Source of the DNA: a virus
Direction: 5' to 3' (one strand)
DNA length: 33,313 bases
Virus record (IMG/VR): IMGVR_UViG_3300030090_000565
Coordinates: 594-33,906 of that record
A program made the position numbers and the translations under genes. Of this stretch, positions 5,326 to 32,079 are shown piece by piece (position 1 is the stretch's first letter; the number at the start of each line of letters is the position of its first letter). The notes beneath the pieces were generated by a model. The model had not been told where the DNA came from. It made no database searches and saw only the letters and a program-made list of their open reading frames with translations.

Positions 5326-6139
5326 TTGTAGTTTAGCTCCTGTAGATACTAATTTACAACAAGGTAAAACTTTACCTAGTATATTACAAATACAATCTGA
5401 AGAATTATTAAACGCACCACAACCTAAAGTACCTATCGTTGTAGCAGTATACCCTAATAGTTTTACTGACCAAACAGGACAACGTAAAAGCAATAGTGAG
5501 TTTGCTTTATTTAGTACAGCACTAACCCAAGCTCCTAGTCATTTATTAATTAGAAGTTTAAAACATACAGCTAATGGTAAATTTTTTAGAGTTGCCGAAA
5601 GAGTTGGATTAGATAATCTTACAAAAGAAAGACAACTAATTCGTTCTGCTAGAGAACAAAACGAAGCAACAGATGGACCTAAACCTATTATGCCGTTATT
5701 ATTTGCAGGTGTTCTTATGGAAGGTGCCGTAATTGGGTATGACACAAATATTAAAAGCGGTGGTATTGGTGCAAGATATTTAGGTATTGGAATGAGTAAA
5801 CAGTATCGTATAGACAATATAACAGTTGCTTTACGTATGGTTTCCATAGCTACAGGAGAAGTATTAATTGATGTTTTGGTGAATAAACAAATTTATAGTT
5901 ATGGACAATCACAAGATGTTTTTAGGTTTATTGAAGCAGGTACAGAACTTGTAGAAATAGAAACAGGAGATGCAGAAAACGAGCCTACAACGTTAGCATT
6001 ACAGAGAGCTATTGAGGCGTCTGTTTTGCAAATCGTCAAAATAGGGTATGATAAAGGTTTTTGGGAGGAAAAAAATGAAGCAATTAAAATTGATGAGCCT
6101 GATTGCGATGCTGAGTGTATTGACAACATACGCGGCTGA
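5270..6139 (+). CDS. csgG: CsgG-like outer-membrane curli secretion pore lipoprotein
   Basis: This protein has 289 aa from the first ATG; ATGs at 5276 and 5282 are also possible. A lipobox LSSC (C20) is followed by SLAP, giving a lipidated mature protein of about 270 aa, near E. coli CsgG (262). Diagnostic stretches are IVVAVYPNSFTDQTGQ (about 56-71), IGYDTNIKSGGIGARYLGIG (155-174), IATGEVL (193-199), DVFRFIEAG (216-224) and a late ENEPTTLALQRAIE (237-250). These align to E. coli IIGYESNVKSGGVGARYFGIG, VFRFID and SNEPVMLCLMSAIE. CsgG forms a nonameric outer-membrane channel for unfolded curlin export. It sits between CsgF and a secreted repeat protein, as expected of a functional set. The tail has two cysteines (C279, C283) near the end. 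Confidence 0.94.
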   Translation: MQMEMSQRYSCLLAIFLSSCSLAPVDTNLQQGKTLPSILQIQSEELLNAPQPKVPIVVAVYPNSFTDQTGQRKSNSEFALFSTALTQAPSHLLIRSLKHTANGKFFRVAERVGLDNLTKERQLIRSAREQNEATDGPKPIMPLLFAGVLMEGAVIGYDTNIKSGGIGARYLGIGMSKQYRIDNITVALRMVSIATGEVLIDVLVNKQIYSYGQSQDVFRFIEAGTELVEIETGDAENEPTTLALQRAIEASVLQIVKIGYDKGFWEEKNEAIKIDEPDCDAECIDNIRG

Positions 6140-6791
6140 TAACGAAATACACGTAGACCAAAGCGGAGCTACAGCTAACATAGATTTAGAACAACTTGGT
6201 TCTGGAAATATTATTGGTGGTTTAAATTCTTCAGCAGGAAGTTTAACCGCTCTTGATTTAGACGGAACTTCGTTAACTCTTGATATTAACCAAATAGGTG
6301 ATACAAACAAATTTCTTGGTGATATATTAGGGGACTCTGTAACAGGCTTTTTTGAATTTGATGGTGATAGTAATACTTTTACTATTCAAGGCGACCCAAC
6401 AAACACTTACGGTATAGATAGTTCAAATTACAACGTAGACGTAACAGGAAGTACAAATACTTTTACTCTTGACCATGGCACTAGTGCTCTTGCTGCTACG
6501 TTAGATTTAGATTGGATTATACAGGGTGACGGTAACACTTTTGATTTTGATATAAATTACGACGGTGGTACTTCTTATGTTGATGTTGATGGTGATAGTA
6601 ATACTTTAAACTTTACAGGCTCTGGTTATGCTGGGGGCTATTTTTATTTAGACCAAACAGGTAATTCTAGAACATTTAATATTACACAATCGAGTACACA
6701 AGATAATGACTGGCTCAAAATTATTTCTAACGGTAGTAACGGTACTGTTTGCGTCATTCAAAACGACCAAGGTACAGGCGTCGGATGCTGA
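6075..6791 (+). CDS. Secreted curlin-like repeat protein, probable CsgG cargo
   Basis: This protein has 238 aa from ATG 6075, chosen for its GGGAGG ribosome site 6 bases upstream and for the signal peptide it creates (MKQLKLMSLIAMLSVLTTYA, then ADNE). The mature part holds about eight degenerate copies of a G-[DS]-x-N-type repeat, at roughly residues 39-48, 72-82, 94-106, 122-135, 148-159, 170-182, 193-205 and 217-229. Examples are NQIGDTNKFLG, EFDGDSNTFTIQG and DVDGDSNTLNFTG. Curlin subunits CsgA/CsgB are built from Q-x-G-x-x-N strand-loop-strand repeats that stack as amyloid. These copies keep G and N but often lose Gln. Two cysteines near the C-terminus (C226, C238) are unusual for curlins. 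It overlaps csgG (65 bases) and the FecR gene (86 bases). Confidence 0.8.
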   Translation: MKQLKLMSLIAMLSVLTTYAADNEIHVDQSGATANIDLEQLGSGNIIGGLNSSAGSLTALDLDGTSLTLDINQIGDTNKFLGDILGDSVTGFFEFDGDSNTFTIQGDPTNTYGIDSSNYNVDVTGSTNTFTLDHGTSALAATLDLDWIIQGDGNTFDFDINYDGGTSYVDVDGDSNTLNFTGSGYAGGYFYLDQTGNSRTFNITQSSTQDNDWLKIISNGSNGTVCVIQNDQGTGVGC

Positions 6792-7821
6792 TATTGGAGA
6801 TATATCTGAACTAAACGGCTCTGCTCAAATTGTAAGAGATAAACCTTACGACGCTAATTTAAAATTTGCTATACAAAGTAATGACGAAGCTATAACTAAA
6901 AATGGTCGTATGGCTATTACTTTTCTTGACGAGTCTGTAGTAAAACTTACCGAACATTCACAACTTCTCATAGATGAATATATTTATGACCCTGACCCAA
7001 GTAAAGCAAAAATGGCACTTACCTTTGGTCTTGGTACAGCAAGGTTTATTACTGGCAATTTAAATCGTATAGATAAACAAAATATACAATTAAAAACTCC
7101 TACAGCAAATATAGCTATTCGTGGTACTGACTTTACTGCTACGGTTGATGAACTAGGTCGTTCACTTATTATATTATTGCCTGACCCTTTTGGTCTTTCT
7201 AGTGGCGAAATAGAGGTAGTTACAGCAACTGGTAGTGTTTTATTAAATAAACCTTATCAAGCTACAACTGTTTCTGTGTGGGAAAGCACTCCCACTAAAC
7301 CTGTAATATTAGATTTAACTTTAGATATTATAGATAATATGTTAATTGTTACGCCACCAAAAGAAGACGCTGTTGTACAAGAAGAAGCAACTACAGCTAA
7401 AACAGTTAATTTATTAGATTTTAATGATTTAGATATAGATTATTTAGCAGAAGATTTTTTAGAAGATAATAGTTTAGAGTTTACAGAATTAGATATTAAT
7501 TACCTTGATGTTAATTTTTTAGAAGATTTATTAAATGTATTAGACGCTCTTGCTATAGAAAAAGAAGAAGACCAATTAGCGTTAGCTACAGGAGTAAATG
7601 TTTCTGGTACTTTAATTGGTCAAGACTCAGATACACAAATAACTACAATAGTAACAGGACAGGTTATAAGTTTACGTAGGAAAGTAAGTGAGTCTGTGCA
7701 ATTAGATTTAAATTCAGGAAACGGTTATACAGTAATTTTGATACAAGACGGAGTATCTAATATAATAAAAATCAATGGTGGAGGAGACTCTGTTATAACG
7801 ATTAACCAAAGTAGCGGATGA
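6706..7821 (+). CDS. Secreted FecR-domain protein
   Basis: This 371-aa protein has an N-terminal signal peptide (hydrophobic 5-18, KVQA-SDAD near residue 25). The FecR core follows: an SND..ITKNGRMAITFLD region (58-75) and the hallmark GTARFITGN, LKTPTANIAIRGTDF (110-143). In bacteria secreted FecR-domain proteins, unlike anti-sigma FecR, often pair with CHASE2 cyclases; the cyclase gene here begins 4 bases before this one stops. Residues 240-274 hold a repeated acidic block (DLDIDYLAEDFLED, then ELDINYLDVNFLED), and the C-terminal 70 residues are Gly/Ser/Val/Ile rich and beta-like. Its first 86 bases encode the end of the curlin-like protein in another frame. No clear ribosome site precedes the start, suggesting translational coupling. 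Confidence 0.88.
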   Translation: MTGSKLFLTVVTVLFASFKTTKVQASDADIGDISELNGSAQIVRDKPYDANLKFAIQSNDEAITKNGRMAITFLDESVVKLTEHSQLLIDEYIYDPDPSKAKMALTFGLGTARFITGNLNRIDKQNIQLKTPTANIAIRGTDFTATVDELGRSLIILLPDPFGLSSGEIEVVTATGSVLLNKPYQATTVSVWESTPTKPVILDLTLDIIDNMLIVTPPKEDAVVQEEATTAKTVNLLDFNDLDIDYLAEDFLEDNSLEFTELDINYLDVNFLEDLLNVLDALAIEKEEDQLALATGVNVSGTLIGQDSDTQITTIVTGQVISLRRKVSESVQLDLNSGNGYTVILIQDGVSNIIKINGGGDSVITINQSSG

Positions 7822-9551
7822 AGAAACTTATATTTATATTATTACCTTTATTAGCATTACCTTTATTGTTTCAAAGCACGCCTACAGAAATATTAAAATT
7901 AAAAACTTTTGATGCTTTAATAAAAGAACAAGAGCCTAGCGGTAATTTTGTAATACTTAATATAACTGAAGAAGATGTAGAGCGGGAAGGTGGTTATCCA
8001 TTACCTAGAAAAAGATTAGCAGATATACAATTAGAAATATTAGGTAAAGGTGCACTTGGGGTTGGTTGGGTTATTAGTTTTCCACAAGCAGATAGACTTA
8101 TGGGAGATGAAGATTTTGCTAGGTCTTTAGGATACGCTCCGAGTGTATTAGCTACTTTTGAAGACGGTAATCAAAACTATCCTAAAACAACAGGTACCGT
8201 TATTAAAGGTCCTGATGTTGGGGGGTTAGCGTCTACAGGAGTTAAACAAAATTTTTATTTATACGATGATATAGCACAAGGAGTTGCTATAGCCCCCACA
8301 GAAGTAGACCAACTTGTTAGGCGTATTCCTCTATTATTAAAAACGCCTGACGGTTGGGCTCCTTCTTTTGGAGTTCATGTGTTAAAAAATTTAACAGGAG
8401 CTCGTACTTATATAATTACTACTAATGATAACGGAGTGCAAGAAATAGCTGTTAGGGGAATACCACCAGTTAAAACAGATAGTCTTGGGCGTAAGTGGAT
8501 TAGTTGGGTAAAAACAGAAGAAACTAATTTACAAGAAATGGATGTAAACGGTAAGTTTGTTTTCGTAGGTGTTACTGCAAATGGTGTAATGCCGCAAATT
8601 GCAACACCTGTTGGTTTATTAGAACCACATAAAATACAAGCAGCGTTATCTGAAAGCGTATTAATACAAAATAGTCCTTATATTCCTGATTACGCTTTAG
8701 CTTTAGAACTTTTAATATTTATAGCGTCTGTAGGGCTTATCTGGGCGTTTATAAGCTATCTAGGAATAACTTGGGGAGTAAGTCTAGCTTTACTAACTAT
8801 AGCCTTAACGGGCTTATACGGGGCTTATACGATAGGAACAGGTGTTTTAATAGACGTAACATGGGCTTTAATAAGTCAATTTATAACAGGAAGCGTAGCT
8901 TTTTATCTTAGATTTAGAGAACAATGGAAATTAAGACAACAAATTAAGAAACAATTTGAACATTATTTAGACCCCAGACAAGTTAAACGTTTACAAAAAG
9001 ACCCTGATTTATTAAAACTAGGTGGAGAAAAAAGAAGATGTACTTTCTTATTCACAGACGTTAGAGGTTTTACTGCGTTATCAGAAACATTACCGCCAGA
9101 AGAAGTAACTAAAATAATGAATAAAGCATTAACTATACAATCTGATGCAGTACAAAAATATAACGGAATGGTAGATAAATACATAGGTGACGCTATGATG
9201 GCAATATTTAACGCACCATTAGACCTACAACACCACGAACAAGTAGCTGTAGAATGTGCAAAAGAAATACAAGAAAATATAATAAAAGCAGATATAGGTG
9301 TTGCTATAGGAGTAGGCGTAAATACAGGAGAAGCCGTTATTGGTAATATGGGTAGCGATACACGGTTTGATTATTCAGCTATAGGGGACGCTGTAAATAC
9401 TGCTGCTAGATTAGAATCAGCTACTAAAGAAGCAGGGGTAAACATACTTATAGGCGAAGAAACTGAGAAATATTGTGGTGTTTCGTTAAAACCATTAAAA
9501 CCTATAAAAGTAAAAGGTAAAGAAAAAGCTTTAAAAATATATACTTTTTGA
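7818..9551 (+). CDS. CHASE2-domain class III adenylate cyclase
   Basis: This 577-aa protein has an N-terminal membrane anchor (3-19), a CHASE2-type extracytoplasmic sensor (about 25-285) and three membrane segments (about 293-313, 317-341, 345-364). A cytoplasmic class III nucleotidyl cyclase domain follows (about 405-577). Catalytic features are D414 in FLFTDVRGFTA and D458 in KYIGDAMMAIF (two-metal site), K454 for adenine recognition, and N527/R531 in GDAVNTAARLE for the transition state. S520 sits where adenylate cyclases have Asp or Thr. With K454 present, ATP is the likely substrate, giving cAMP. The length and order match bacterial CHASE2 cyclases, and the catalytic set is complete. It overlaps the FecR gene by 4 bases, so a sensor pair is likely. 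A membrane cyclase is a rare phage cargo. Confidence 0.93.
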   Translation: MKKLIFILLPLLALPLLFQSTPTEILKLKTFDALIKEQEPSGNFVILNITEEDVEREGGYPLPRKRLADIQLEILGKGALGVGWVISFPQADRLMGDEDFARSLGYAPSVLATFEDGNQNYPKTTGTVIKGPDVGGLASTGVKQNFYLYDDIAQGVAIAPTEVDQLVRRIPLLLKTPDGWAPSFGVHVLKNLTGARTYIITTNDNGVQEIAVRGIPPVKTDSLGRKWISWVKTEETNLQEMDVNGKFVFVGVTANGVMPQIATPVGLLEPHKIQAALSESVLIQNSPYIPDYALALELLIFIASVGLIWAFISYLGITWGVSLALLTIALTGLYGAYTIGTGVLIDVTWALISQFITGSVAFYLRFREQWKLRQQIKKQFEHYLDPRQVKRLQKDPDLLKLGGEKRRCTFLFTDVRGFTALSETLPPEEVTKIMNKALTIQSDAVQKYNGMVDKYIGDAMMAIFNAPLDLQHHEQVAVECAKEIQENIIKADIGVAIGVGVNTGEAVIGNMGSDTRFDYSAIGDAVNTAARLESATKEAGVNILIGEETEKYCGVSLKPLKPIKVKGKEKALKIYTF

Positions 9552-18420: not shown

Positions 18421-19257
18421 ATGGACCCTAATGAAAGATTAACAGGTATTGCAAGTATGATGCCACAAGGTGGAGCACCTATGGGTGGTGGAGCACCAGC
18501 ACCAATGGCACCTCCCCCTATGCCTCAACCAGAAATGTCGGGACCTCCTCCTATGCCTATGGAACCTGAAATGGGTGGTGAACAGCCTCCTATGAATTTA
18601 GAACAAGACGCTATGATGTTAGCTGAAGCTGTTGTAGGTAGAACACAAGGCGATATAGGTGCAGCTGTAGATGTTTTAGATACAGCTAAAGCTATGTTAA
18701 TGTCTAGTGGTAATCAAGAACCACAAATGATGAATATGGGTGGACCTTTATATGCTGAAAGTGGTAGAGCAATTTCTAATTCTGATTCTGATATATTAAG
18801 ACAGATGATTATGGACGATTTTCAAGGACAAAGCGGAAGAACTATGTCTGATAAAGATACATCAAGATTAACACAATTAGGGGATTTATTTAGAAAAGAC
18901 TGGGAAATGTATAAGGAATATACTCGAAATAACCCAGAACTTTCAGAATACCTAGATATTATAACAAGAGGAGGTAGAGCATTAAGCGATAAAGATGCAC
19001 AAATGCTTTACGAAATGGGTATTAGAAGTGGTGAAATAGGTAGTGCAACTAACCCTGACCCTTTAGATTCATTAGGCAGAACTAGGTCTGGTATAGATTG
19101 GTCAAAATTAAAAAATATTTCTCCTTCTTATCGACTGTATGAAAAAATGAAGAAGAAAGAAAATGTGCCTCCTGTTTCAAGAGCAGTTGGTGGACCTTTA
19201 ATGACTGATGCACAAAAATATAGGGAAGCAATAAAAGAAGCTAGAATGGTTAGTTAA
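18421..19257 (+). CDS. Virion-associated protein with three SDKD-type repeats
   Basis: Residues 12-60 of this 278-aa protein are Pro/Met/Gly rich (PMGGGAPAPMAPPPMPQPEM). Three copies of a short motif follow: GRAISNSDSDIL (115-126), GRTMSDKDTSRL (139-150) and GRALSDKDAQML (185-196). Each is followed by a helix, which suggests a repeated docking element. The 581-aa protein upstream has one further copy (GRTLSDKD). Two short GGPL segments (108-111 and near 260) flank the repeats. It ends tail-to-tail with the helicase gene; the two stops overlap over 19250-19257. I do not recognise the family. Confidence 0.7.
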   Translation: MDPNERLTGIASMMPQGGAPMGGGAPAPMAPPPMPQPEMSGPPPMPMEPEMGGEQPPMNLEQDAMMLAEAVVGRTQGDIGAAVDVLDTAKAMLMSSGNQEPQMMNMGGPLYAESGRAISNSDSDILRQMIMDDFQGQSGRTMSDKDTSRLTQLGDLFRKDWEMYKEYTRNNPELSEYLDIITRGGRALSDKDAQMLYEMGIRSGEIGSATNPDPLDSLGRTRSGIDWSKLKNISPSYRLYEKMKKKENVPPVSRAVGGPLMTDAQKYREAIKEARMVS

Positions 19258-20701
19258 TCCAATCTTTCCATTTTTCATCACCTAATACTTCTTGTGCTAG
19301 GTCGAGTTTGTTTCTAAGAGCTTTTACAATTTTTTCATCTACAGTACCTTTAGCGACTAAATCAATATAAGTTACTTTATTAGTTTGCCCTATACGATGA
19401 GCACGGTCTTCAGATTGTAAACGTTTTTCTAAATCATAATTATTACTATAATAAATTACATTACTTGCTTCAGTTAAAGTAATTCCATAACCACCTGTTT
19501 GGGTATTACTAACTAAATATTGTAGTTGTGAATTAGGGTCTTGAAACCTACGTATAATTTCTTGACGTTCTTCGTCAGGTGTTTCACCGTAATAGGTAGC
19601 TACACTTTCAGTGCCTGTTATTTCTTGTAATGTTTTTAATATTCTTTTTATATCGTATTGATAGTTAGCCCATATAATAGTTTTACCTTGTACTTCTTGT
19701 AAAATATTTAATAGTTCATCTAAACGGTTGCTTTTAACTTCTACTTCTTCACCATTATCATGTCTAACGAAACCACAAACAACTTGGTGTAATCTTAATA
19801 TTTGTGTAAGTATTGAAGTTACACTAACTATTTCATGTGAATCTAATTCTGCAATAGCGTAATCTTTTAATTGTTTATAAACTTTCTTTTGTTCAGGAGT
19901 TAATTCTACTTCCCTACGTTGATATATTTTATCTGGTAAATCTAAACAGTCTTTCTTTAAAACTCTATAAGAAAATTCATTTACGTTTTTACTTAATTCA
20001 TCTAAATTTTGATAACCTACAACTTGCCTAAACGACCTAGCCCCCATTTTACGATTAATTAATTGTGCGTATCTGTTTTGAAAAGAATAATAAGACGCAT
20101 ACCCTAATAATTGAGGAGATAAGAAACTGCTTTGACTGTATAAATCTAAAGGTGATTGCGTAACAGGAAATCCTGTAAGTATTCTCCTGTATTTAGTATT
20201 GATAGCTAACTTCAATAAATTTTTAGTTCTTTGTGCTTTAGGATTTTTTATAGTCGTTGATTCGTCAACTGCTATTAACGGTAAATGTCCTAATATAAAT
20301 TTTTCAACAAAAGCTACTCCTTTTTTAGTGCTAAAAGCTTCAACGTTGATTACTAATATTTTTAAATCATCACTAGGAGTAAATAATTTAATTAATTCTT
20401 CTTTTTGTTTTTTAGTAGGTGCAGGATTCCACACAGCTATTTGTGTTTCTACGTGGTCTGGCATATGAGTAGGTATTTCTTTTTCTGACCAGTTTCTATA
20501 CACCCCTTTTGGAGCAACAATAATTGCAGAATTTATCCCGCCTTTATCATAAAGTATAGCTATATTATCAATAAGAACTTTGGATTTACCCGTTCCCATT
20601 TCCATAAAATAAGCGTATTCTTTTTTATTCCAAGACTTTTTTAACGCTTCTAATTGATGCTCATACGGCTTAGTTTTAAACTTATATTTAATTTCACTCA
20701 T
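19250..20701 (-). CDS. SNF2-type superfamily 2 DNA helicase/translocase
   Basis: This 483-aa protein is on the minus strand. Visible motifs are Q-like YEHQLEAL (13-20), Walker A EMGTGKS (34-40), motif II VDESTT (145-150, DEST in place of DEAH), ILTGFPVTQSPLDLYSQ (174-190, SNF2 motif III region), a VSNTQTGGYGITLTEAS segment and motif VI RAHRIGQ (433-439). These are typical of compact phage SNF2-family ATPases, which move along duplex DNA and may remodel protein-DNA complexes or aid replication and recombination. It is the only minus-strand gene here and probably has its own promoter near 20728-20733. Family is confident, exact job unknown. Confidence 0.93.
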   Translation of the reverse strand: MSEIKYKFKTKPYEHQLEALKKSWNKKEYAYFMEMGTGKSKVLIDNIAILYDKGGINSAIIVAPKGVYRNWSEKEIPTHMPDHVETQIAVWNPAPTKKQKEELIKLFTPSDDLKILVINVEAFSTKKGVAFVEKFILGHLPLIAVDESTTIKNPKAQRTKNLLKLAINTKYRRILTGFPVTQSPLDLYSQSSFLSPQLLGYASYYSFQNRYAQLINRKMGARSFRQVVGYQNLDELSKNVNEFSYRVLKKDCLDLPDKIYQRREVELTPEQKKVYKQLKDYAIAELDSHEIVSVTSILTQILRLHQVVCGFVRHDNGEEVEVKSNRLDELLNILQEVQGKTIIWANYQYDIKRILKTLQEITGTESVATYYGETPDEERQEIIRRFQDPNSQLQYLVSNTQTGGYGITLTEASNVIYYSNNYDLEKRLQSEDRAHRIGQTNKVTYIDLVAKGTVDEKIVKALRNKLDLAQEVLGDEKWKDWIN

Positions 20702-22692: not shown

Positions 22693-24216
22693 ATGTCGTT
22701 AGCAAGGGAGTTCGCTACACGTTATGCAGGACTACGTCAGGCATACGGAACTTTTACAGCTAGCAATGAAACTAGAGAAGATGGAAAGGCAAGTGGTAAA
22801 AACATAACGATATCTAAAGAGTTATCTGATAACGATTTATTAAAGTTATGGGAAGACCATTTGTCTGGTCATCAAAGTGTGGGAATAGTTCCTATAGATG
22901 AACATAATAACTGCGTATGGGGAGCCATAGACGTAGATGAATACCAATTAGATTTAAAAGATTTAGCTATAAAGATTGCTAAACAAGAGCTTCCTTTAGT
23001 GCTTTGCCGTAGTAAAAGTGGTGGAGCTCATATATACATATTTTTAAAAGAGCCTGTAGCAGCTTCGATGTTACAAAGGAAATTAAGACAGATTGCAGCG
23101 TCTATCGGTTATGGACAAGCAGAAATATTTCCTAAACAAACACAATTATTATTAGAAAGAGGGGATAGAGGTAGCACGTTAAATATGCCTTATTTCGGTG
23201 GAGAAAACTCTACACGTTATGCTTACGGTAAAGATGGAGCAGCATTAAGCCCACAAGAATTTTTAGATTATATAAACGATATTGAATTAAGTCCTAGTGC
23301 TTTAGAAAAATTAGAAGCTAGTCCATTAACAGAAACTATGGAGTGGCTAGACCAAGCACCACCGTGTATACAACATCTTGTTGTACAAGGTTTCCCTAAA
23401 GGCTCACGAAACTCAGGGCTGTTTAATGTAGGTGTTTTCTTAAGAAAGAAGTTTCCAGATGATTGGGAAAAAAGATTAGAAGATATAAATATAAAATATA
23501 TGCAACCTCCATTAGGTGCACAAGAAGTTTTAACTGTAGGTAAACAATTACAAAGAAAAGATTATTTTTATAGATGTAATGACCAACCTATAGCAAGTCA
23601 TTGTAATAGTCCTTTATGTAGAACTCGTAAGTTTGGTATTGGTGCTAACGGTGGCACACCTTTATTCAGCAACCTTACAAAACAAGATAGCGACCCACCT
23701 ATATGGTTTTTAGATGTAGAGGGAGGCAGATTAGAATTAGAAACAGACGATTTATTAAACCAAAATAGGTTTCAGCGTAAGTGTATGGACGCTCTTAACA
23801 AAATACCACCTAAAGTAAAAGAAAACGTTTGGAGACAGATAATACAGCAATTACTAGACGCAATAACCATAGTAGAAGTGCCTAAAGAAAGTTCTACTGA
23901 AGGACACTTTATGGAGTTATTAGAAGCTTTCTGTACGGAAAGACCTGCTAGAGAAAGAGATGAATTATTACTACATAAACCTTGGACAGACAATGGTAAA
24001 ACATATTTTAGGTTATTAGATTTAATGGATTATTTACATAGAAATAATTTTAAAGAATACCAAAGAAATAAACTAACTTCTAAATTAAAACAACTACACG
24101 GAGAGCCTCACTTTTTTAACATAAAAGGCAAAGGCATAAACGTATGGTATATAGATGAATTTAAAGCACAAGATGAGCCCCACGACTTACCAGACTTTAA
24201 CGATAATTTATTATGA
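22693..24216 (+). CDS. Archaeo-eukaryotic-type primase (TOTE/primase-polymerase-like)
   Basis: In this 507-aa protein residues 1-175 form an AEP-type catalytic domain. It contains the metal-binding pair D80/D82 in WGAIDVDEY, the nucleotide-binding CRSKSGGAHIYIFLKEP (H113), and AEIFPKQ with a further acidic residue. A C-terminal region has PPCIQHLVVQG and KGSRNSGLFNVGVFLRK, and cysteines C225, C295, C304 and C309, which may form a metal or Fe-S site as in PriL/TOTE-type primases. It would make primers for replication by the polymerase at 30208. It overlaps the AlkB-like gene through ATGA. No ribosome site is obvious, so coupling to the SSB gene is likely. Confidence 0.85.
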   Translation: MSLAREFATRYAGLRQAYGTFTASNETREDGKASGKNITISKELSDNDLLKLWEDHLSGHQSVGIVPIDEHNNCVWGAIDVDEYQLDLKDLAIKIAKQELPLVLCRSKSGGAHIYIFLKEPVAASMLQRKLRQIAASIGYGQAEIFPKQTQLLLERGDRGSTLNMPYFGGENSTRYAYGKDGAALSPQEFLDYINDIELSPSALEKLEASPLTETMEWLDQAPPCIQHLVVQGFPKGSRNSGLFNVGVFLRKKFPDDWEKRLEDINIKYMQPPLGAQEVLTVGKQLQRKDYFYRCNDQPIASHCNSPLCRTRKFGIGANGGTPLFSNLTKQDSDPPIWFLDVEGGRLELETDDLLNQNRFQRKCMDALNKIPPKVKENVWRQIIQQLLDAITIVEVPKESSTEGHFMELLEAFCTERPARERDELLLHKPWTDNGKTYFRLLDLMDYLHRNNFKEYQRNKLTSKLKQLHGEPHFFNIKGKGINVWYIDEFKAQDEPHDLPDFNDNLL

Positions 24217-24800
24217 TAGATTTTAAAAAAGGATATTTTAAAGACCAAAACCCTGTTATAACTGATTGGGATGAGCCAACAATACGAGAGTTTAAAGGAC
24301 ATAAAGTATTAGGCAGACGTACTGCAGGCTTCGGTAATATATTTTCATACGCAGGTAAAACATACGAAGGTCGTCCTTGGTCAAGTAATCATTTAATATT
24401 TAGAATAAAAACTTTAACAGAGCATATGTTGTTAAGAGATTACGGCATGAATGTTGACTTTTCTTTTTGTTTATGTGGTTATTATGGTAACGACGGCAAA
24501 GGTATACCCCACCATTCAGATACTGTTCCTACATTAGATGATTTAGTTGTATCAATATCGTTTGGTGCACCTAGAGTATTTACATGGCGACATTATCAAA
24601 ACGATATAAAACGAAAAACAGATACTAGTGAGATACAAACTAAAATAGAAAATTTTGTAGTAAGTGAAGATACCTACATATTAGAACACGGCGATGTTTT
24701 AATTTTTGATGGGCATAGCCAGATGAAATCTACTCACGCTGTACCCGATATAGTAGAGGCAGAAGAAAGAATAAATCTTACATTTAGGACAGGTATATGA
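24213..24800 (+). CDS. AlkB-like 2OG-Fe(II) dioxygenase
   Basis: This 195-aa protein shows the AlkB-family set: iron ligands H101 and D103 in IPHHSDT, distal H175 in KSTHAVP, and R186/R192 in RINLTFR for 2-oxoglutarate. LEHGDVLIFDGHSQ precedes the last His, and GYYGNDGKGIP the first. AlkB proteins remove alkyl groups from damaged bases; phage copies may repair genome damage or act on modified bases. It is linked by ATGA overlaps to the primase and helicase genes. The presence of a DNA-modification gene pair downstream leaves room for a base-oxidation role, but repair is the default. Confidence 0.9.
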   Translation: MIDFKKGYFKDQNPVITDWDEPTIREFKGHKVLGRRTAGFGNIFSYAGKTYEGRPWSSNHLIFRIKTLTEHMLLRDYGMNVDFSFCLCGYYGNDGKGIPHHSDTVPTLDDLVVSISFGAPRVFTWRHYQNDIKRKTDTSEIQTKIENFVVSEDTYILEHGDVLIFDGHSQMKSTHAVPDIVEAEERINLTFRTGI

Positions 24801-26293
24801 CATTACCTAACCACACACAAGTAATTCTTGGACCTCCTGGAACAGGAAAAACCAGTACATTACTTGGTCTTATAGAAGATGAATTAGAACAAGGCACTAG
24901 TCCAGATAGTATAGGCTTTTTTACTTTTACTAAAAAAGCAGTGAATGAGGGTAAAGAAAGAGCCATGAATAAATTCAGTATAAGTAACAAAGAACTACCT
25001 TATTTTAGAACATTACATTCATTAGCTTTTAGACAACTAGGATTAACTAGAGAAAGTGTAGTAAGTAATTCAGATATAAAAGATTTAAACGAAAAACTTA
25101 ATCTAAAACTAACAGGTAGAACAACTTCTGACGACGGACATCTGTTCGGTATGACCCATGACGACAGGTTAGCTTTTATAGAAAACTTAGCTAGAATGAG
25201 AGATATACCATTAAAACAACAATGGCATGAAGTAGAAGACGCTGTTGGTTGGTTTGAACTAGAACGTTTTGCTAGAGGATTGCATTTATTTAAAGAAGAC
25301 AGGCTTTTAGTAGATTATACCGATATGTTACAAAAATTTTTAACTGAAGGAGATGTGCCTAAACTAGATGTTATGTTTGTAGATGAAGCACAAGATTTAT
25401 CTCCCCTACAATGGGCTGTGGTGCGTAAACTCGCAGAAAAAGCCAAAAAGATATATGTAGCAGGAGATGATGACCAAGCTATTTATAAGTGGGCAGGAGC
25501 AGACGTTGATTATTTAATAGAAAATTCTAAAAACGCTATGGTTTTAAAACAGTCTTATAGAGTACCTTCAGCCGTTCATGAAGTAGCAAAACAATGTATA
25601 GGTCAAGTTAGGTCTAGAATTTATAAAGAATGGACACCTAGAAAAGAAGAAGGATTAGTTAGGTGGGAGCCAAATATAGAATTAGTTAATATGGAGAAAG
25701 GGGATTGGTTAGTATTAGCAAGAACTAATTATTTATTAGAAGATGTTGATGCTTACTGTAGGAACGAAGGTTGGTTTTTTGAAGTAAAAGGTAGACCAAG
25801 TATCCCAGAATCTAAAATAAGAGCTGTTCTTTATTGGGAAAAATTACGTAAAGGTGAGGGTATTTCTTTAAATGAATGTGCCAATATATTGAAGTTTATA
25901 AAAGTCGCTGATTATAAAAAACTAGATATGTTAGATAGTGATATAACTCTACAATACGAAGATTTAAAAAGTCATTTTTCTGACTTACCTGATGGTAAAT
26001 GGTTTGATGTTTTTACATTATTAAGTCCTAAAGAAGTCAGTTATATAAGAGCCATGTTACGTAGAGGAGAAAAGATAACTAAACAACCACGTATACGTTT
26101 GTCTACTATTCATGCTGCTAAAGGAGGCGAAGCTACCAACGTTGTATTATTAACAGATATAACTACAAGAGTTTATAAAAATTATCAACAAAACCCTGAT
26201 GATGAAAATAGGGTGTTTTATGTAGGCGTAACAAGAACAAAAGAAAACTTGTACTTAATAGAGCCTAAAACAACACGCTGCTATCAGTTGTAA
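24797..26293 (+). CDS. UvrD/Rep-type superfamily 1 DNA helicase
   Basis: In this 498-aa protein the motifs appear in order: Walker A GPPGTGKT (12-19), Ia FFTFTKKAVNEGKERA (41-56), motif II FVDEAQD (194-200), motif III GDDDQAIYKWAGA (223-235), motif IV QSYRVP (252-257), V LSTIHAAKGGEA and VI FYVGVTRTKENLYL near the end. It is shorter than UvrD (720 aa) because the 1B/2B insert domains are reduced, as in many phage enzymes. It probably unwinds duplex DNA 3'-5' for replication or recombination. It ends the first replication operon; a 69-base gap follows. Confidence 0.93.
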   Translation: MTLPNHTQVILGPPGTGKTSTLLGLIEDELEQGTSPDSIGFFTFTKKAVNEGKERAMNKFSISNKELPYFRTLHSLAFRQLGLTRESVVSNSDIKDLNEKLNLKLTGRTTSDDGHLFGMTHDDRLAFIENLARMRDIPLKQQWHEVEDAVGWFELERFARGLHLFKEDRLLVDYTDMLQKFLTEGDVPKLDVMFVDEAQDLSPLQWAVVRKLAEKAKKIYVAGDDDQAIYKWAGADVDYLIENSKNAMVLKQSYRVPSAVHEVAKQCIGQVRSRIYKEWTPRKEEGLVRWEPNIELVNMEKGDWLVLARTNYLLEDVDAYCRNEGWFFEVKGRPSIPESKIRAVLYWEKLRKGEGISLNECANILKFIKVADYKKLDMLDSDITLQYEDLKSHFSDLPDGKWFDVFTLLSPKEVSYIRAMLRRGEKITKQPRIRLSTIHAAKGGEATNVVLLTDITTRVYKNYQQNPDDENRVFYVGVTRTKENLYLIEPKTTRCYQL

Positions 26294-26362: not shown

Positions 26363-27202
26363 ATGTCATCAATAAGAAAGAAACTACTCGTTAATGAAAA
26401 CGATAGTAAAAACACAAGAATGGATATAGCTAGTGCAGGTGTATTAGCTAATTGGCGACCAGATGAGATAGCTCATATGAGTCGTTTTGATAAAATAGCT
26501 TCGATGTGTATAGCAGAAGCTAAAAAACTAGAAAGACCCCTTGATACTTTCGAGGTAGGTTGTGGAGAATGTTGGACTTTAAGAAATCTATATAAAGCTT
26601 ATGTAGTTAAAAAGTCAGATATTATAAGGTCGTATTATGGTTATGATATCGACCCTGCGTGTGAAATGGAAAACCCTTTTTGGTCTAATGCAGGTAATCC
26701 TTTAAAAGACTCTACATGGTTTCAAAACTTTAACGGTGAAATAAGAATACAAGATTTAACAACTAATCCTGTATTTGATTTAGAAGACGAAAGTATAGAC
26801 TTTTTCTGGACTACTGAAGTTATTGAACATATGGGTAGACAGTTTATAAGGGCTTGGCTAGACGATGCTGCTAGGGCTATGAGACCGAATGCATTAGCTT
26901 TTGTATCTACGCCTAACCATGACGGCTCTAACGATAAACTACCCGAAGACCACGTATATGAGTGGGGTTTCCAAGAACTAAAAGACGAGTTAGAAAGAAA
27001 CTTCGAAATAGTTGACGTTACAGGAACGTTTATCCAATTACCTAATTTAAAGAAAGCTATGAAAGAGCCTAGTATTGGATGGACTCCCGAACAATTTAAG
27101 AAACTAGAAAATAGATACGGCAGACAATTTTTAAGAGTTGTTGCGGCTACATTTTATCCAGAAGTAGCGAATAACTGTTCTTGGGTGTTAAGGAAGAAGT
27201 AA
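26363..27202 (+). CDS. SAM-dependent methyltransferase, class I
   Basis: In this 279-aa protein SAM-binding motif I reads TFEVGCGECWTL (62-73), motif II YYGYDIDPAC (91-100), and the post-motif region DFFWTTEVIEHMGRQFIRAW and MRPNALAFVSTPNH matches class I Rossmann methyltransferases (UbiG/Methyltransf_11 type). There is no NPPY or similar motif of DNA amino-methyltransferases, so a base target cannot be claimed. A strong AAAGGAG ribosome site precedes the start. It opens the operon that holds the thymine-modification pair, so a part in nucleotide or DNA modification is plausible by position only. Confidence 0.85.
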   Translation: MSSIRKKLLVNENDSKNTRMDIASAGVLANWRPDEIAHMSRFDKIASMCIAEAKKLERPLDTFEVGCGECWTLRNLYKAYVVKKSDIIRSYYGYDIDPACEMENPFWSNAGNPLKDSTWFQNFNGEIRIQDLTTNPVFDLEDESIDFFWTTEVIEHMGRQFIRAWLDDAARAMRPNALAFVSTPNHDGSNDKLPEDHVYEWGFQELKDELERNFEIVDVTGTFIQLPNLKKAMKEPSIGWTPEQFKKLENRYGRQFLRVVAATFYPEVANNCSWVLRKK

Positions 27203-27351
27203 TGGGTAGAAAAGTAAGAGAATCTGAATATTGGAAAGGTTTACAAAATGTTAGAAAAAGCAACGCTGTACCTAATTCTGATTTGACTCCTAAAAGACCT
27301 GCAAATAGAAAAGAGCGTAGAGCAGAAGCAAAACTTAGAAGGAAGAAGTAA
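27202..27351 (+). CDS. 49-aa basic protein
   Basis: This frame starts in the upstream stop (taATG) and its stop overlaps the next ATG, so all three genes are coupled. The product begins MGRKVRESEYWKGLQNVRKS and ends KERRAEAKLRRKK; it is highly Lys/Arg rich and likely helical at its end. GGAAGAAG before the ATG can act as a ribosome site. It may bind nucleic acid. No family is recognised. Confidence 0.6.
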   Translation: MGRKVRESEYWKGLQNVRKSNAVPNSDLTPKRPANRKERRAEAKLRRKK

Positions 27352-28256
27352 TGTTTATTCAAGAAGAATTGAATCGTTATTGTTATTGGCAAATAGAACG
27401 TGAAAACATTCGTTTGCAAAAAGAGGTGTCTCAACTCCCACCACCTTGGACAAGCGATTCAATTCTTCGAGAATACAAGTTTTGTCAAGTATTTAGAGAA
27501 GACGACAGAACAACTAGGTGGTTTAAAACCCATATAAGAGAGCCTATGAAAAACTCTCCAGACGTCCTCATGGCTACGGTTATATTCAGATGGTTTAATT
27601 GGATTCCTACAGGAAGAACTCTTATTAAACACGATTTATTAAAAAACTGGAATAGGAAGAAAGCTATAGAAGAAATAACTAAACAACCTAAATGGATAAC
27701 AGGAGCATACATAATTAAAACACCTAACGGTATGGATAAGGTTACAGGAGTTGCTGAATGTGTATCACATATGTGGCAAGACCGAGAATATTTAGCAAAA
27801 GAAATCTTTAAAACTAAATCTTTAGAAGATACTTGGACTCTACTTAGAGATTATCCATACATGGGACCGTTTATGGCTTACGAGGTCGTTACGGATTTAA
27901 GGCATACCTATCTATTAGAAGACGCTAAAGACGTGCTTACGTGGGGCAACGCAGGTCCAGGAGCTATGCGAGGATTAAATAGGTTAACGGGCAGGGAACT
28001 AGGCTACTCTAAACGTAGCCATGATTGGGTAGGAGAAATGCAAGAATTATATAAAATAGTTCAAGCAAAACTTCCCGCACATATTTTACAAAGAAACGAT
28101 ATGAAATATGAAATGAGAGAGATTGAAGGAGGGCTTTGTGAGTTCGATAAATACTCTAGGATATTTAAAGGAGAGGGCAGAACAAGGTCTATATATAAAC
28201 AAAATTCTTTACCAATAGTAGAGGATTTAATTAATGGAGAAAGTAAATATGGGTAA
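27351..28256 (+). CDS. HMUDK-helical / aGPT-pyrophosphorylase-type thymine hypermodification protein
   Basis: This 301-aa protein has the N-terminal block LPPPWTSDSILREYKFC (29-45) followed by QVFREDDRTTRWF, the signature of proteins annotated as alpha-glutamyl/putrescinyl-thymine pyrophosphorylase or 5-hmdU DNA kinase helical domain. Later PYMGPFMAYEVVTDLRHTY and GNAGPGAMRGLNRLTGRE are also typical. These proteins act in phages that replace or decorate thymine via 5-hydroxymethyluracil in DNA. No Walker A motif is present, so the P-loop kinase step must lie elsewhere if it exists. The TS-superfamily gene 300 bases downstream fits a source of 5-hmdUMP. Family is fairly sure; the chemical step is not. 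Confidence 0.82.
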   Translation: MFIQEELNRYCYWQIERENIRLQKEVSQLPPPWTSDSILREYKFCQVFREDDRTTRWFKTHIREPMKNSPDVLMATVIFRWFNWIPTGRTLIKHDLLKNWNRKKAIEEITKQPKWITGAYIIKTPNGMDKVTGVAECVSHMWQDREYLAKEIFKTKSLEDTWTLLRDYPYMGPFMAYEVVTDLRHTYLLEDAKDVLTWGNAGPGAMRGLNRLTGRELGYSKRSHDWVGEMQELYKIVQAKLPAHILQRNDMKYEMREIEGGLCEFDKYSRIFKGEGRTRSIYKQNSLPIVEDLINGESKYG

Positions 28257-28470
28257 AGTAAACGATTATTCCGTACAACTTATAGAAGACTGGGGAGATT
28301 CAGTCGACATACACTATACTCAATTTTTAGAGGTAGCTTTCTTTTTAAAAGTTTCAGCAACAAGAGAAATGGCTGTAGCGTTTATTAAAAGAAAACTTCC
28401 TGGATTAAATGAGTCAGAGATAAATTTTTTAATAGAAGAAATAGTGGGAGGATATCACGATTCATTATGA
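28249..28470 (+). CDS. Small hypothetical protein
   Basis: This protein has 73 aa from ATG 28249, which has GGAGA 8 bases upstream; an in-frame ATG at 28234 would add five residues. It overlaps the end of the previous gene and its stop overlaps the next small frame (ATGA). The protein is acidic and helical (SVQLIEDWGDSVDIHYTQFL, then ESEINFLIEEIVGGYH). No known domain is recognised. Confidence 0.6.
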   Translation: MGKVNDYSVQLIEDWGDSVDIHYTQFLEVAFFLKVSATREMAVAFIKRKLPGLNESEINFLIEEIVGGYHDSL

Positions 28471-28550
28471 CAATCTTAAAGATTTTAATTAGTGTATTTG
28501 CATTAGCAATAGCACTACCTTTAATTGCAATAGTGATGATGGATAAATAA
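28467..28550 (+). CDS. 27-aa single-span membrane peptide
   Basis: This tiny frame begins in an ATGA overlap and ends 2 bases before the TS-like gene. The product is almost entirely a hydrophobic helix (ILKILISVFALAIALPLIAI) with a polar MMDK end. Such peptides occur in phages as membrane modulators, but a random AT-rich frame can look similar. Coupling on both sides is the only further support. Confidence 0.4.
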   Translation: MTILKILISVFALAIALPLIAIVMMDK

Positions 28551-28552
28551 TT

Positions 28553-29590
28553 ATGAAAGTTATAAAAGCAAGAAATGTTAATGGTGCATTATTAAGAGGA
28601 GTGGATTTATTTAAGTCTGTGCTTAACTACTCAACAATAGAAAGCAGAAACGGTAAAACTTTAGAATGTGTTGACCCTGTTACTACTGTGTATTTAAAAC
28701 CAACAGAAAGAGTATGTCTTATAGAAGAAAGAGATGCAAATCCTTTCTTTCATTTTATAGAAAGTATGTGGATGTTAGCAGGTAGAGATGATTTAAAACC
28801 ACTAACTTATTATGTATCTAGTATGAAAGATTTTTCAGATGATGGTGAAACTCTATGGGGAGCTTATGGTAAAAGATGGAGAAAATATTTTCTTAAAGAC
28901 CAAATAGATGTTATTGTTAAGATGTTGAAAAAAGACCCTAACGATAGACGTGCGGTATTACAAATGTGGGACGCTATACATGATTTAGATAAACAAGGTA
29001 AAGACGTGCCGTGTAATACGAACATATATTTTAAAATCAGACTTAATAAATTAAACATGACTGTTTGTAATAGGTCTAACGATATGCTTTGGGGAGCCTA
29101 TGGTGCTAACGTGGTACATATGTCAGTTTTACAAGAATATGTAGCTCACAGATTAGGATTAGAAGTAGGAGTGTACAGACAAATTAGTGATAGTTTCCAC
29201 GTTTATTTAAACAATGTTTGGGACAAAGTAAAAGATTTATCTATAGATTCTTACTCTATCAGAGCTATTATAGACCCATACGATAAACTAGAAAAATATA
29301 ACCCTTATTTTAAACTATTTATAGACCACACAGTTTTAGATTGGGAGCTTGATAGATTTTTTAATTATCATCCTGCTGATTTAGAAACATCAAATAATTG
29401 GGAAAACCCTTGTATGAGGGATGTAGCAGTGCCTATGGCAATAGCTTATTCTAAATATAAAGCTAACCAATTTGATGAAGCATACGAAGTATGCGAAAAA
29501 ATAGTTCCAGTAGACTGGAAGACCGCTTGCCTCAGTTGGCTCCGCACACGAGAAGAGCGTAAAAATAACCTAGCGGAAAAAGGAGAATAA
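28553..29590 (+). CDS. Thymidylate synthase superfamily: dUMP methylase or hydroxymethylase
   Basis: In this 345-aa protein the catalytic Cys is C154 in DVPCNTNIYF. RRAVLQMWD (132-140) holds the phosphate-binding Arg pair, RSND (174-177) with MLWGAYGANVVHM (178-190) replaces the RSxDxxLGxPFN region of ThyA, and DSFHVYLN (213-220) matches the HxY nucleoside contact. N186 at the pyrimidine-recognition site suggests dUMP rather than dCMP (dCMP hydroxymethylases have Asp). With the hypermodification protein just upstream, 5-hydroxymethyl-dUMP is a reasonable product, but plain dTMP synthesis cannot be excluded by sequence alone. It is longer than bacterial ThyA (264 aa). Confidence 0.88.
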   Translation: MKVIKARNVNGALLRGVDLFKSVLNYSTIESRNGKTLECVDPVTTVYLKPTERVCLIEERDANPFFHFIESMWMLAGRDDLKPLTYYVSSMKDFSDDGETLWGAYGKRWRKYFLKDQIDVIVKMLKKDPNDRRAVLQMWDAIHDLDKQGKDVPCNTNIYFKIRLNKLNMTVCNRSNDMLWGAYGANVVHMSVLQEYVAHRLGLEVGVYRQISDSFHVYLNNVWDKVKDLSIDSYSIRAIIDPYDKLEKYNPYFKLFIDHTVLDWELDRFFNYHPADLETSNNWENPCMRDVAVPMAIAYSKYKANQFDEAYEVCEKIVPVDWKTACLSWLRTREERKNNLAEKGE

Positions 29591-29591
29591 T

Positions 29592-29957
29592 ATGAGTGCA
29601 GATTTTGATAAAATGAGAGAAGTCGCTCAACAAGACCTCCATGCCTTAAAAAGAGCCGAAGAATCTTACGGAGACTCTTGGAAAAGACGTGGTGGTGTTG
29701 GTGCTTTTATGATGCTCGCACGTAAGTTTGATAGAGTAGAACACCAGTCAGAAAAACACGGGTGGGATGTTTTTGAGGCAGGCACAGTTTACACTGGCGA
29801 GGCAGGTCTACTAGATGATATACGTGATTTACGTAGGTATTTATTACTCGTAGAACAGGAAATACTTTTACAAACTGAAAACACAACTGAAGTTGTAAAA
29901 GTAGATAATAATAATGATGATACTGTAGGTAATGACACCTACGAGGAGGACATATGA
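29592..29957 (+). CDS. Phage hypothetical protein beside the TS-like gene
   Basis: In this 121-aa protein an N-terminal helix is followed by SYGDSWKRRGGVGAFMMLAR and KFDRVEHQSEKHGWDVF, then LLDDIRDLRRYLLLVEQEIL and an Asn/Asp-rich tail. The YGDSWKRRGG then LDDIRDLRRY pattern recurs in many marine phages and faintly recalls small helical nucleotide-modification-associated domains. I would not assign it. A GGAG ribosome site precedes the start, and it overlaps the next gene by ATGA. Confidence 0.65.
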   Translation: MSADFDKMREVAQQDLHALKRAEESYGDSWKRRGGVGAFMMLARKFDRVEHQSEKHGWDVFEAGTVYTGEAGLLDDIRDLRRYLLLVEQEILLQTENTTEVVKVDNNNDDTVGNDTYEEDI

Positions 29958-30205
29958 GTTGGTTTAAAAGTTTTATTAACTGGATAACACCACCACCAAA
30001 AGAAGTTGATGAAGTTGCTAAAGCTAAAGTTATCAAAAAAGCTGTTAAAGAGGGAACAGTAAAGTTAGATAAATTTAACACACCTATCGTTCAAAAACCG
30101 CAACGTGCTAGAACTAAAAAAGGAACATTTGTAGCTGATGATAAATCTACTCCAGATGTTAACGAAGCATGGGTAGGGGGCAAAGCACCTAAAAAGAAAA
30201 AGTAA
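29954..30205 (+). CDS. Small basic hypothetical protein
   Basis: This 83-aa protein starts MSWFKSFINWITPPPKEVDE, with an amphipathic aromatic N-terminus, then a Lys-rich region ending GGKAPKKKK. GAGGAGG precedes the start. It ends 2 bases before the polymerase gene, so it is likely co-translated with it. It might be a DNA-binding or membrane-surface partner; no family is recognised. Confidence 0.6.
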   Translation: MSWFKSFINWITPPPKEVDEVAKAKVIKKAVKEGTVKLDKFNTPIVQKPQRARTKKGTFVADDKSTPDVNEAWVGGKAPKKKK

Positions 30206-30207
30206 TA

Positions 30208-32079
30208 ATGCAACAAATACCTTTCGATTTTTTTGCTCCTAAGAGTTCTTGGTCTACGCCAGATGTTTTTCCTCAGTTTTCTGAAACAGAAACAGTGGCA
30301 ATAGATTTAGAAACCTATGACCCTTACCTCACGACTTGTGGTCCAGGATGGGCTACAGGTCGGGGTCATGTGGTAGGTATAGGAGTAGCTACTGAATCAT
30401 GGAAAGGGTATTTCCCCATTAGACATGAGGCAGGAGGTAATTTAGACGAAGGTGTTGTTTTAAGGTGGTTAACCAATCTACTCAACTCTACTAAAAGAGA
30501 AGTTATATTTCATAACGCACTCTATGACGTAGGTTGGTTAAGGCGAGAAGGGATTATAGTCAAAGGTAAAATACTTGATACTATAGTCGCTGCTCCGTTA
30601 ATCAATGAAAATATGTTTTCTTACTCATTAGATAATCTAGGCAGTTTTTATTGTGATGAAAAGAAAGATGAATCTTTATTACAAGACGCATCATTAGCTT
30701 TTGGAGTTAATCCTAAATCAGAAATGTATAAGTTACACGCAAAGTATGTTGGACCTTATGGTGAACAAGATGCAGCGTTGACTTTAAAACTATGGAATAA
30801 ACTTAAAATAGAAATAGCTGAACAAAATCTAGAAAAGATATTAGAAACAGAATCTAAACTAATTCCTCTACTTATAGAAATGAGGTGGAGAGGTGTTAGA
30901 GTAGACGAAGAAAAAGCAGAAAAAATTAGTAAGCAGTTATCCACCGAAGAACAAAAAATACAAGTAGAGATAAAACGTAAGTATGGCAGTGATGTGAACT
31001 TATGGGCTAATGCTTCTCTACAAAATATTTTTGATAAAAATAAATTATGGTACCCACGCACAGAAAAAGGTATGGCTAGTTTTCAGAAAGATTGGTTAGA
31101 AGGACATGAACATGAACTTCCACAACTAATAGTAAGAGCTAGAAAACTCAATAAAGCTAGGACTACTTTTATCGATAAGATGATTATGGAACACGCTTTC
31201 AATGGCAGAATACACGCAGAGGCTCATCCTATGCGTAATGATAGAGGAGGGACAGTTAGTGGTAGGTTTAGTTATAGTAATCCAAATCTACAACAAGTTC
31301 CTGCTCGTGACCCAGAAATAGGTAATTTGATACGTTCATTATTTATTCCTGAAGAAGGTTGTCAATGGGGCGTGTTCGATTATTCTCAACAAGAGCCCAG
31401 ACTTACAGTGCATTACGCTAACCAAATGCAATTAACAGGAGCAAAGGACGCAGTACAACAATATACAGAGGATAATGCAGACTTTCACCAAATTGTTGCA
31501 GATATGGCTAATATACCACGTAAACAAGCAAAAACTATTAATTTAGGATTAAGTTATGGTATGGGTAAAACTAAACTAATTAAGGAGTTAGGATTAGATG
31601 ATACAGAAGCAGAAAAATTGTTTCAACAATATCACGCTAAAGTTCCTTTTATCCGAGCTCTACAAGACCAATGTGCAAGAGTAGCTATGGAACGTGGCTA
31701 CATCAGAACATTTGCAGGTAGACGTTGTCGTTTTGATTTGTGGGAAAGCAGATATGAACGCACTCTACCTCTGCCTTTAGATGAGGCAAAAGAAAAATAT
31801 GGCGAAGACTTGAAAAGGTCTTATACTTACAAAGCTCTAAATCGTTTAATACAAGGCTCAGCTGCTGATATGACTAAATTAGCAATGATAGGTCTATGGG
31901 AGGAAGGAATAGTTCCTCATCTACAAGTACACGATGAAGTTGATATTTCAATAGAGAACACAGAACAAGCTAACACAGTAACAAGAATAATGGAGAACTG
32001 TGTCGAACTTGCTGTTCCCCTATTAGTGGATATGGAATTAGGCGAATCGTGGGGCGAAACAAAGGAAATAAAAAGATGA
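30208..32079 (+). CDS. Family A DNA polymerase with 3'-5' exonuclease
   Basis: This 623-aa replicative polymerase has exonuclease residues D33/E35 (AIDLETYDP), D107 (NALYDVGWL) and D188 (YGEQDAALT). Polymerase motif A reads VFDYSQQEPR (D391), motif B RKQAKTINLGLSYGMG (K442, Y450) and motif C QVHDEVD (H575-D576-E577). No 5'-3' exonuclease domain is present, as usual for phage PolA. L446 is the equivalent of E. coli F762; Leu there is linked in marine virus surveys to slower, more accurate synthesis and often to temperate or less virulent lifestyles. It overlaps the downstream HTH gene through ATGA. Confidence 0.97.
   Translation: MQQIPFDFFAPKSSWSTPDVFPQFSETETVAIDLETYDPYLTTCGPGWATGRGHVVGIGVATESWKGYFPIRHEAGGNLDEGVVLRWLTNLLNSTKREVIFHNALYDVGWLRREGIIVKGKILDTIVAAPLINENMFSYSLDNLGSFYCDEKKDESLLQDASLAFGVNPKSEMYKLHAKYVGPYGEQDAALTLKLWNKLKIEIAEQNLEKILETESKLIPLLIEMRWRGVRVDEEKAEKISKQLSTEEQKIQVEIKRKYGSDVNLWANASLQNIFDKNKLWYPRTEKGMASFQKDWLEGHEHELPQLIVRARKLNKARTTFIDKMIMEHAFNGRIHAEAHPMRNDRGGTVSGRFSYSNPNLQQVPARDPEIGNLIRSLFIPEEGCQWGVFDYSQQEPRLTVHYANQMQLTGAKDAVQQYTEDNADFHQIVADMANIPRKQAKTINLGLSYGMGKTKLIKELGLDDTEAEKLFQQYHAKVPFIRALQDQCARVAMERGYIRTFAGRRCRFDLWESRYERTLPLPLDEAKEKYGEDLKRSYTYKALNRLIQGSAADMTKLAMIGLWEEGIVPHLQVHDEVDISIENTEQANTVTRIMENCVELAVPLLVDMELGESWGETKEIKR

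Follow-up and report, generated by a model that had tools for sequence, protein, structure and literature searches.

Bases 594-33906 of the 33,906-bp virus record IMGVR_UViG_3300030090_000565, itself a fragment, form a stretch of 33,313 nucleotides that is called the window below. Between the genes for a UvrD-like helicase and a family A DNA polymerase (PolA) the window holds a compact set of genes on one strand, referred to here as the cassette: a class I S-adenosylmethionine (SAM)-dependent methyltransferase (MTase), a stand-alone protein of the HMUDK_hel/aGPT-Pplase1 family (hel), a thymidylate synthase (TS) superfamily enzyme and several small open reading frames (ORFs). Judged from its genes and those of its relatives, the cassette is narrowly favored to be a variant of thymidine hypermodification that dispenses with the kinase and is coupled to a methyltransferase. 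The initial annotation, made from the DNA of the window alone, had proposed a thymine hypermodification pathway like those of phages SP10 and phiW-14; the part of that proposal that stands is a modification based on 5-hydroxymethyldeoxyuridine (5-hmdU), for which the TS residue signature speaks, and the part that does not is a kinase-dependent product, since neither the kinase nor an amino-acid:DNA transferase (ADDT) was found in 23 related records.

Profile scores for the TS homologue are 82.9 bits with PF00303 and 378.7 bits with phrog_5131, and the protein shares ~43% identity across its entire length with the enzymes of phage M6 and the YuA group. It retains the catalytic Cys154, and its Asn186 aligns with Asn177 of E. 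coli TS, the uracil/dUMP-type Asn, as the initial annotation had read it. Two tryptophans of the E. coli enzyme are replaced, Met91 lying on Trp80 and Phe94 on Trp83. The same Met/Phe/Asn signature is found in SPO1 gp29, annotated as a dUMP hydroxymethylase, although this protein is only about 29-31% identical, and the same Met/Asn combination is found in the M6 enzyme. Trp80 of TS keeps water off the methylene intermediate, and hydroxymethylases are expected to lose it. Among 314 TS relatives examined the Trp80 equivalent is never Trp (0/314), and the 230 MTase-linked ones all have Met there; the equivalents of the catalytic Cys, Asp169, Asn177, His207 and Tyr209 do not vary. The residues are thus those of the SPO1 gp29 type, with Cys154 and Asn186 kept and Trp80 lost, and the NCBIfam ThyA equivalog models give scores of 55-99 bits vs cut-offs of 108-405. 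Since Met occupies the Trp80 place as in the SPO1 and M6 enzymes, the TS homologue is likely a dUMP hydroxymethylase with 5-hydroxymethyl-dUMP as its product, and a 5-hmdU-based thymine modification is well supported at the level of sequence.

The hel protein, recognized as such in the initial annotation, matches PF18723 over residues 7-272 (E 3.7e-45, 154.9 bits vs a cut-off of 25) as well as phrog_2396, and is 35% identical to M6 gp55. An AlphaFold2 model (mean pLDDT 92) finds almost wholly helix-hairpin-helix (HhH) DNA glycosylases in structure comparison, at Z 7-11 with MjOgg at the top (11.3), before the values drop to 3.4; besides the glycosylases, the good matches include only queuine salvage enzymes (DUF2419) and PUGT, a glycinyltransferase of PaMx11. 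A fold of the HhH DNA-glycosylase superfamily is accordingly predicted for hel, as a shared fold only, Z values below 13 being modest for a helical protein. PUGT (PaMx11 gp46, a 5-PmdU glycinyltransferase, PDB 8z2n) resembles hel in overall fold (Z 11.0 over 228 residues, rmsd 4.2) but requires a phosphorylated substrate, which the cassette-bearing pelagiphages appear unable to make. That hel might be a sequence relative of ADDT was considered and rejected, hhalign detecting no sequence similarity between the hel and ADDT families and the fold alone being shared. Twenty-two residues do not vary among 44 hel sequences whose partner is a kinase, a glycosyltransferase or a methyltransferase, and the hel of the window has all 22. 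Because these residues are the same whichever partner is present, a setting-independent role of hel, e.g. recognizing or flipping 5-hmdU, would be a better fit than one linked to the kinase.

The MTase matches PF13489 at 34.4 bits vs a cut-off of 27. An ExxEH motif (E152, E155, H156) and a further His, H197, are invariant in 12 diverse homologues; ExxEH with a further His is the pattern of the metal-dependent O-methyltransferases UbiG and Hen1, whose residues the MTase therefore shares. A function could not be assigned from the fold: CmoM ranks first, and CmoM, RebM, Coq5, METTL6 and HEN1 lie too close in Z for any one of them to be chosen. CmoM methylates an oxygen on the C5 side chain of a tRNA uridine. 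A search seeded with the MTase returned 80 loci, with hel in 80/80 and TS in 78/80, which bears out the earlier remark that a methyltransferase lies in the same operon. No examined relative lacks the MTase in its cassette, and the sister phages that were checked, which have no cassette, have no MTase either.

The order UvrD, MTase, hel, (78-aa protein), TS, 121-aa protein, (83-aa protein), PolA is conserved in ~80 relatives, and 230/230 overlapping loci have MTase, hel and TS in that sequence on a single strand. The cassette genes are under strong purifying selection, with ratios of nonsynonymous to synonymous substitution rates (dN/dS) of about 0.05-0.2. The arrangement, given its conservation in so many relatives and this selection, is far beyond chance. 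In the sister phages HTVC023P, HTVC027P, 023Pt_psg01 and DSL-LC04 the primase, UvrD and PolA genes are present, with just small ORFs between UvrD and PolA; because the same flanks thus exist without it, the cassette appears to be gained or lost as one block. As part of the same, slightly better than even, overall explanation, the segment from the MTase gene through the 121-aa gene would be a movable DNA-modification block inserted between UvrD and PolA (Table 1). In a circular relative (L087) a Pyr_excise (PF03013) gene lies at 8985-9464 between UvrD and MTase; the window has none.

Table 1. Genes of the cassette and its flanks, in coordinates of the window
Feature	Coordinates	Strand	Remarks
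UvrD-like helicase	24797..26293	+	PF00580; left flank of cassette
Class I SAM-dependent methyltransferase (MTase)	26363..27202	+	directly upstream of hel
Tiny basic ORF, 49 aa from ATG	27202..27351	+	start read from sequence
HMUDK_hel/aGPT-Pplase1-family protein (hel), stand-alone, 301 aa	27351..28256	+	PF18723
78-aa protein between hel and TS	28234..28470	+	54/80 loci; about two thirds of relatives
TS-superfamily enzyme, 345 aa	28553..29590	+	PF00303, phrog_5131
121-aa protein, SYGDSWKRRGG motif	29592..29957	+	cassette member; 78/80 loci
83-aa basic protein before PolA	29954..30205	+	variable; 63/80 loci
Family A DNA polymerase (PolA)	30208..32079	+	PF00476, 220.6 bits; right flank of cassette

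Two tiny proteins had been assigned to the operon, and ORFs for both exist; the 78-aa protein, which had no family match in profile searches, recurs in the relatives, but the 49-aa ORF (56 aa if started from a TTG at 27181) is seen in 1/80 of them, was rejected as a part of the cassette on this ground and probably stands outside the mechanism. The 121-aa protein resembles Pam3_54, annotated as "nucleotide modification" (tblastn, 55.8% over 52 aa).

Described clusters of the M6/YuA and PaMx11 type (Mesyanzhinovviridae) resemble the cassette in having a dUMP-hydroxymethylase-like TS, with hel upstream of it and PolA nearby, at identities of ~43% for TS and 35-43% for hel. They differ in carrying a 5-HMUDK kinase and ADDT, together with radical SAM, pyridoxal phosphate (PLP) or flavin adenine dinucleotide (FAD) enzymes, where the pelagiphages have the MTase instead. 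In M6/PaMx11-type phages the kinase gene lies directly upstream of hel, with ADDT and further enzymes also present, and is annotated as "terminase small subunit" in M6 and Ab18. This label, given to 5-HMUDK-type kinases in RefSeq and PHROGs (L082:5686-6249, L083:6057-6626, phrog_800), is misleading.

The initial annotation had stated that the usual P-loop kinase is not in the window, and indeed no HMUDK-type P-loop kinase was found there; its suggestion that the kinase and transferases might lie elsewhere in the genome was not supported. The 23 related records, among them a complete circular genome of 61,952 bp whose terminal repeat measures 127 bp, gave no match to the 5-HMUDK kinase (PF18748) or to ADDT (PF18724). 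Because PF18748 alone is a weak detector that misses the Ab18 kinase, phrog_800 and an iterated profile were added: phrog_800 matches just its hel half in the 23 records, and iterated kinase, ADDT, radical-SAM and PLP profiles gave no match at E <= 0.05 in 11 genomes. No relative of M6 gp49, gp51, gp52, gp53, gp54, gp56 or gp59 was found in the 11 genomes. In the circular relative the UvrD helicase alone carries a credible canonical P-loop motif, and no P-loop protein of kinase type is present. P-loop hits in the genomes G009 (46021) and G021 were dismissed as chance motifs; the G009 ORF and the G021 ORF at 49317 resemble phage lysozymes in sequence, and the second G021 ORF does not look like a kinase.

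What stands in place of the kinase is apparent from the neighbors of hel in other genomes. Of the 264 hel loci flanked by at least 2.5 kb on each side, MTase and TS accompany hel in 205, kinase and TS in 42, TS alone in 16 and neither in one; kinase and MTase are never found together (0). When hel is clustered at 70% identity the 48 clusters comprise 25 with kinase, nine with MTase, 13 with TS only, one with neither and none with both. In 70/72 loci the kinase gene immediately precedes hel, and this is also where the MTase lies; by its location, then, the MTase is a cassette member in the slot held elsewhere by the kinase. In the hel tree the MTase group forms one clade (99*), beside the PaMx11-type kinase phages and the locus L210, and for this reason the exclusivity probably reflects one switch rather than nine. 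L210 keeps the UvrD ... PolA frame with a glycosyltransferase-like gene between hel and TS, a label that is a reading of its sequence, with no Pfam match. Glycosyltransferases of the curated TET-associated family (TAGT) or of GT4 type occur within 6 kb in 10/17 hel loci lacking both kinase and MTase, a count that is partly circular in that six of the ten supplied search seeds, and in 2/42 kinase loci and 0/205 MTase loci; no TAGT above cut-off was found in the pelagiphages. The hel-TS loci with TAGT or GT4-type enzymes (L281, L292, L295, L282, L247 and L210) suggest glycosylated 5-hmdU in further phages. Four contigs of Hyphomicrobiaceae/Hyphomonadaceae (L213, L215, L216 and L218) hold hel, TS and a SYGNSWKRRGG-type protein, with kinase, MTase and glycosyltransferase not detected; L216 is a 2.7-Mb contig of a named Hyphomicrobium strain, and its hel/TS locus adjoins a gene of the uracil-DNA glycosylase (UDG) superfamily. 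Here hel and TS could possibly be a cellular 5-hmdU module or a relic.

Distant MTase homologues (~27%) in phages AXL3 and ct3Et533 keep the ExxEH motif and the His and sit two to three genes upstream of a TS-superfamily pyrimidine hydroxymethylase of dCMP type (Asp, not Asn), in neighborhoods that also encode a MazG-like pyrophosphohydrolase and a dCMP deaminase. The AXL3, PW916 and ct3Et533 clusters thus resemble the cassette in having a homologous MTase near a TS-superfamily hydroxymethylase but differ in that the latter is of the dCMP type (Asp), and no hel is annotated in the stretches of them that were read. AXL3 gp28 (L379:6184-6993), annotated as "thymidylate synthase", has Asp at the Asn177 place and is of the dCMP hydroxymethylase type; the AXL3 genome carries a ThyX-type gene as well. 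AXL3 DNA resisted 35 of 37 restriction enzymes and was cut by two, both with A/T-only sites (PMC7504290), resistance at G/C-containing sites being as expected for a modified cytosine. These homologues hint that the MTase family may be linked to 5-hydroxymethylpyrimidines of either kind.

From gene content, conservation, the absence of kinase and ADDT, partner exclusivity, residue signatures and predicted folds, all of them observed, we infer each enzymatic step of the following route. The TS homologue would hydroxymethylate dUMP to 5-hydroxymethyl-dUMP, which would be phosphorylated further, probably by host kinases, and PolA would insert 5-hmdU in place of some or all of the thymine. Hel, with its base-flipping DNA-glycosylase-like fold, would recognize 5-hmdU in the DNA, and the MTase would serve as the "decorator" in the slot of kinase or glycosyltransferase, most plausibly by methylating the 5-hydroxymethyl oxygen. 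O-methylation of this group to 5-methoxymethyl-dU would be the most economical chemistry. The specific product, 5-(methoxymethyl)-2'-deoxyuridine in DNA, made by the MTase with hel as its base-presenting partner, is a tentative and, taken by itself, rather doubtful proposal; to our knowledge no such natural DNA base has been described. Several points weigh against the route as a whole. The MTase scores 12.4 bits vs the 102.95 required by the NCBIfam UbiG equivalog, its class I fold matches hundreds of unrelated enzymes in structure comparison, and methyltransferases of the ExxEH type also act on RNA ends or small molecules. The window is a fragment, so that absence of the kinase rests on the relatives, and the exclusivity of kinase and MTase may record a single event followed by linkage. 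These phages may also contain 5-hmdU only, or a partial replacement.

This last outcome has a rival explanation of its own, in which the TS homologue makes 5-hydroxymethyl-dUMP and 5-hmdU alone takes the place of thymine, as it does in SPO1; hel would then protect the substituted DNA, recruit to it or proofread it, and the MTase would act on RNA, protein or a small molecule. SPO1 uses undecorated 5-hmdU and, as far as we know, does not decorate it further, the glycosylase-like fold of hel is compatible with mere binding of 5-hmdU DNA, and the four alphaproteobacterial contigs with hel and TS have no detected decorating enzyme; yet the strict association of the MTase with the cassette, from which the sister phages without a cassette differ in lacking it, and the location of its distant homologues beside a hydroxymethylase make this explanation unlikely, if still one of some weight.

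A kinase-dependent route as in M6, SP10 or phiW-14, its kinase and transferase being supplied by the host or so divergent as to escape recognition, might be expected from the fact that in most phages described so far hel adjoins 5-HMUDK or is fused to it. It appears improbable in view of the failure of the family models and of phrog_800 outside its hel half, in 23 records, and of the iterated profiles, in 11 genomes, to find these enzymes, and of the circular genome devoid of a kinase-type P-loop protein. Ordinary thymidylate supply, with the TS homologue making dTMP and hel and MTase as unrelated passengers, would agree with the superfamily membership of the enzyme and with the many marine phages that carry thyA or thyX as nucleotide-supply genes; it is very improbable, however, given the Trp80 to Met replacement, scores far below the ThyA equivalog cut-offs and the co-inheritance of TS with hel across distant phages. 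The kinase-free, methyltransferase-coupled pathway accordingly remains the preferred reading.

By its sequence the phage is a pelagiphage of the HTVC023P type, because its PolA best matches those of 023Pt_psg01 (54%) and HTVC023P (50.5%); replication genes and gene order are shared with the group as well, and no direct DNA match of the window to described phages was found. The host of such phages is SAR11, the most abundant surface-ocean bacteria (PMC9599517). At 5270-9551 the window also carries curli/type VIII secretion system cargo, namely genes for CsgG (PF03783), FecR and a CHASE2-adenylate/guanylate cyclase along with an ORF that resembles curlin repeats. It matches a cluster of curli, FecR and adenylate cyclase genes known for the group (PMC9599517). 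Two 2-oxoglutarate-Fe(II) oxygenases are encoded at 24213-24800 and 18-521, the AlkB-like one matching PF13532 and being found in the replication operon of most cassette-bearing relatives, though its linkage to the cassette is not strict. A SNF2-type helicase gene (19250-20701, minus strand) lies between structural and replication genes, both neighbors being on the plus strand. An 84,189-bp IMG/VR record (L117-L121) has two PolA and two UvrD-like copies and probably represents either a chimera or a pair of phages joined together.

In 2022 TS and aG/PT-PPlase1 were described from uncultivated pelagiphages of clades V, VIII and IX as partner genes occurring at the same location; they were compared with the M6 system, and DNA hypermodification was proposed (PMC9599517). 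The TS/hel pair, there too close to PolA, is therefore already published for these phages. The main text of that study does not contain the word methyltransferase and mentions no DNA kinase, the sole kinase named being a histidine kinase; new here are the missing kinase and the methyltransferase partner, neither of which is discussed there. If the proposed pathway is correct, it would amend the view that TS with aGPT-Pplase1 alone implies an M6-like hypermodification. The predicted base is small and SAM-derived. On the more doubtful methoxymethyl proposal, HMUDK_hel would serve generally to present 5-hmdU to a kinase, glycosyltransferase or methyltransferase, and the kinase domain of its Pfam name would be wrong; the same MTase family would on that proposal yield the 5-methoxymethylcytosine analogue in AXL3-like phages. 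With a kinase-free route of this kind, 5-hmdU in DNA would be a hub to which phosphate, sugar or methyl may be added with the help of one shared HhH-fold partner.

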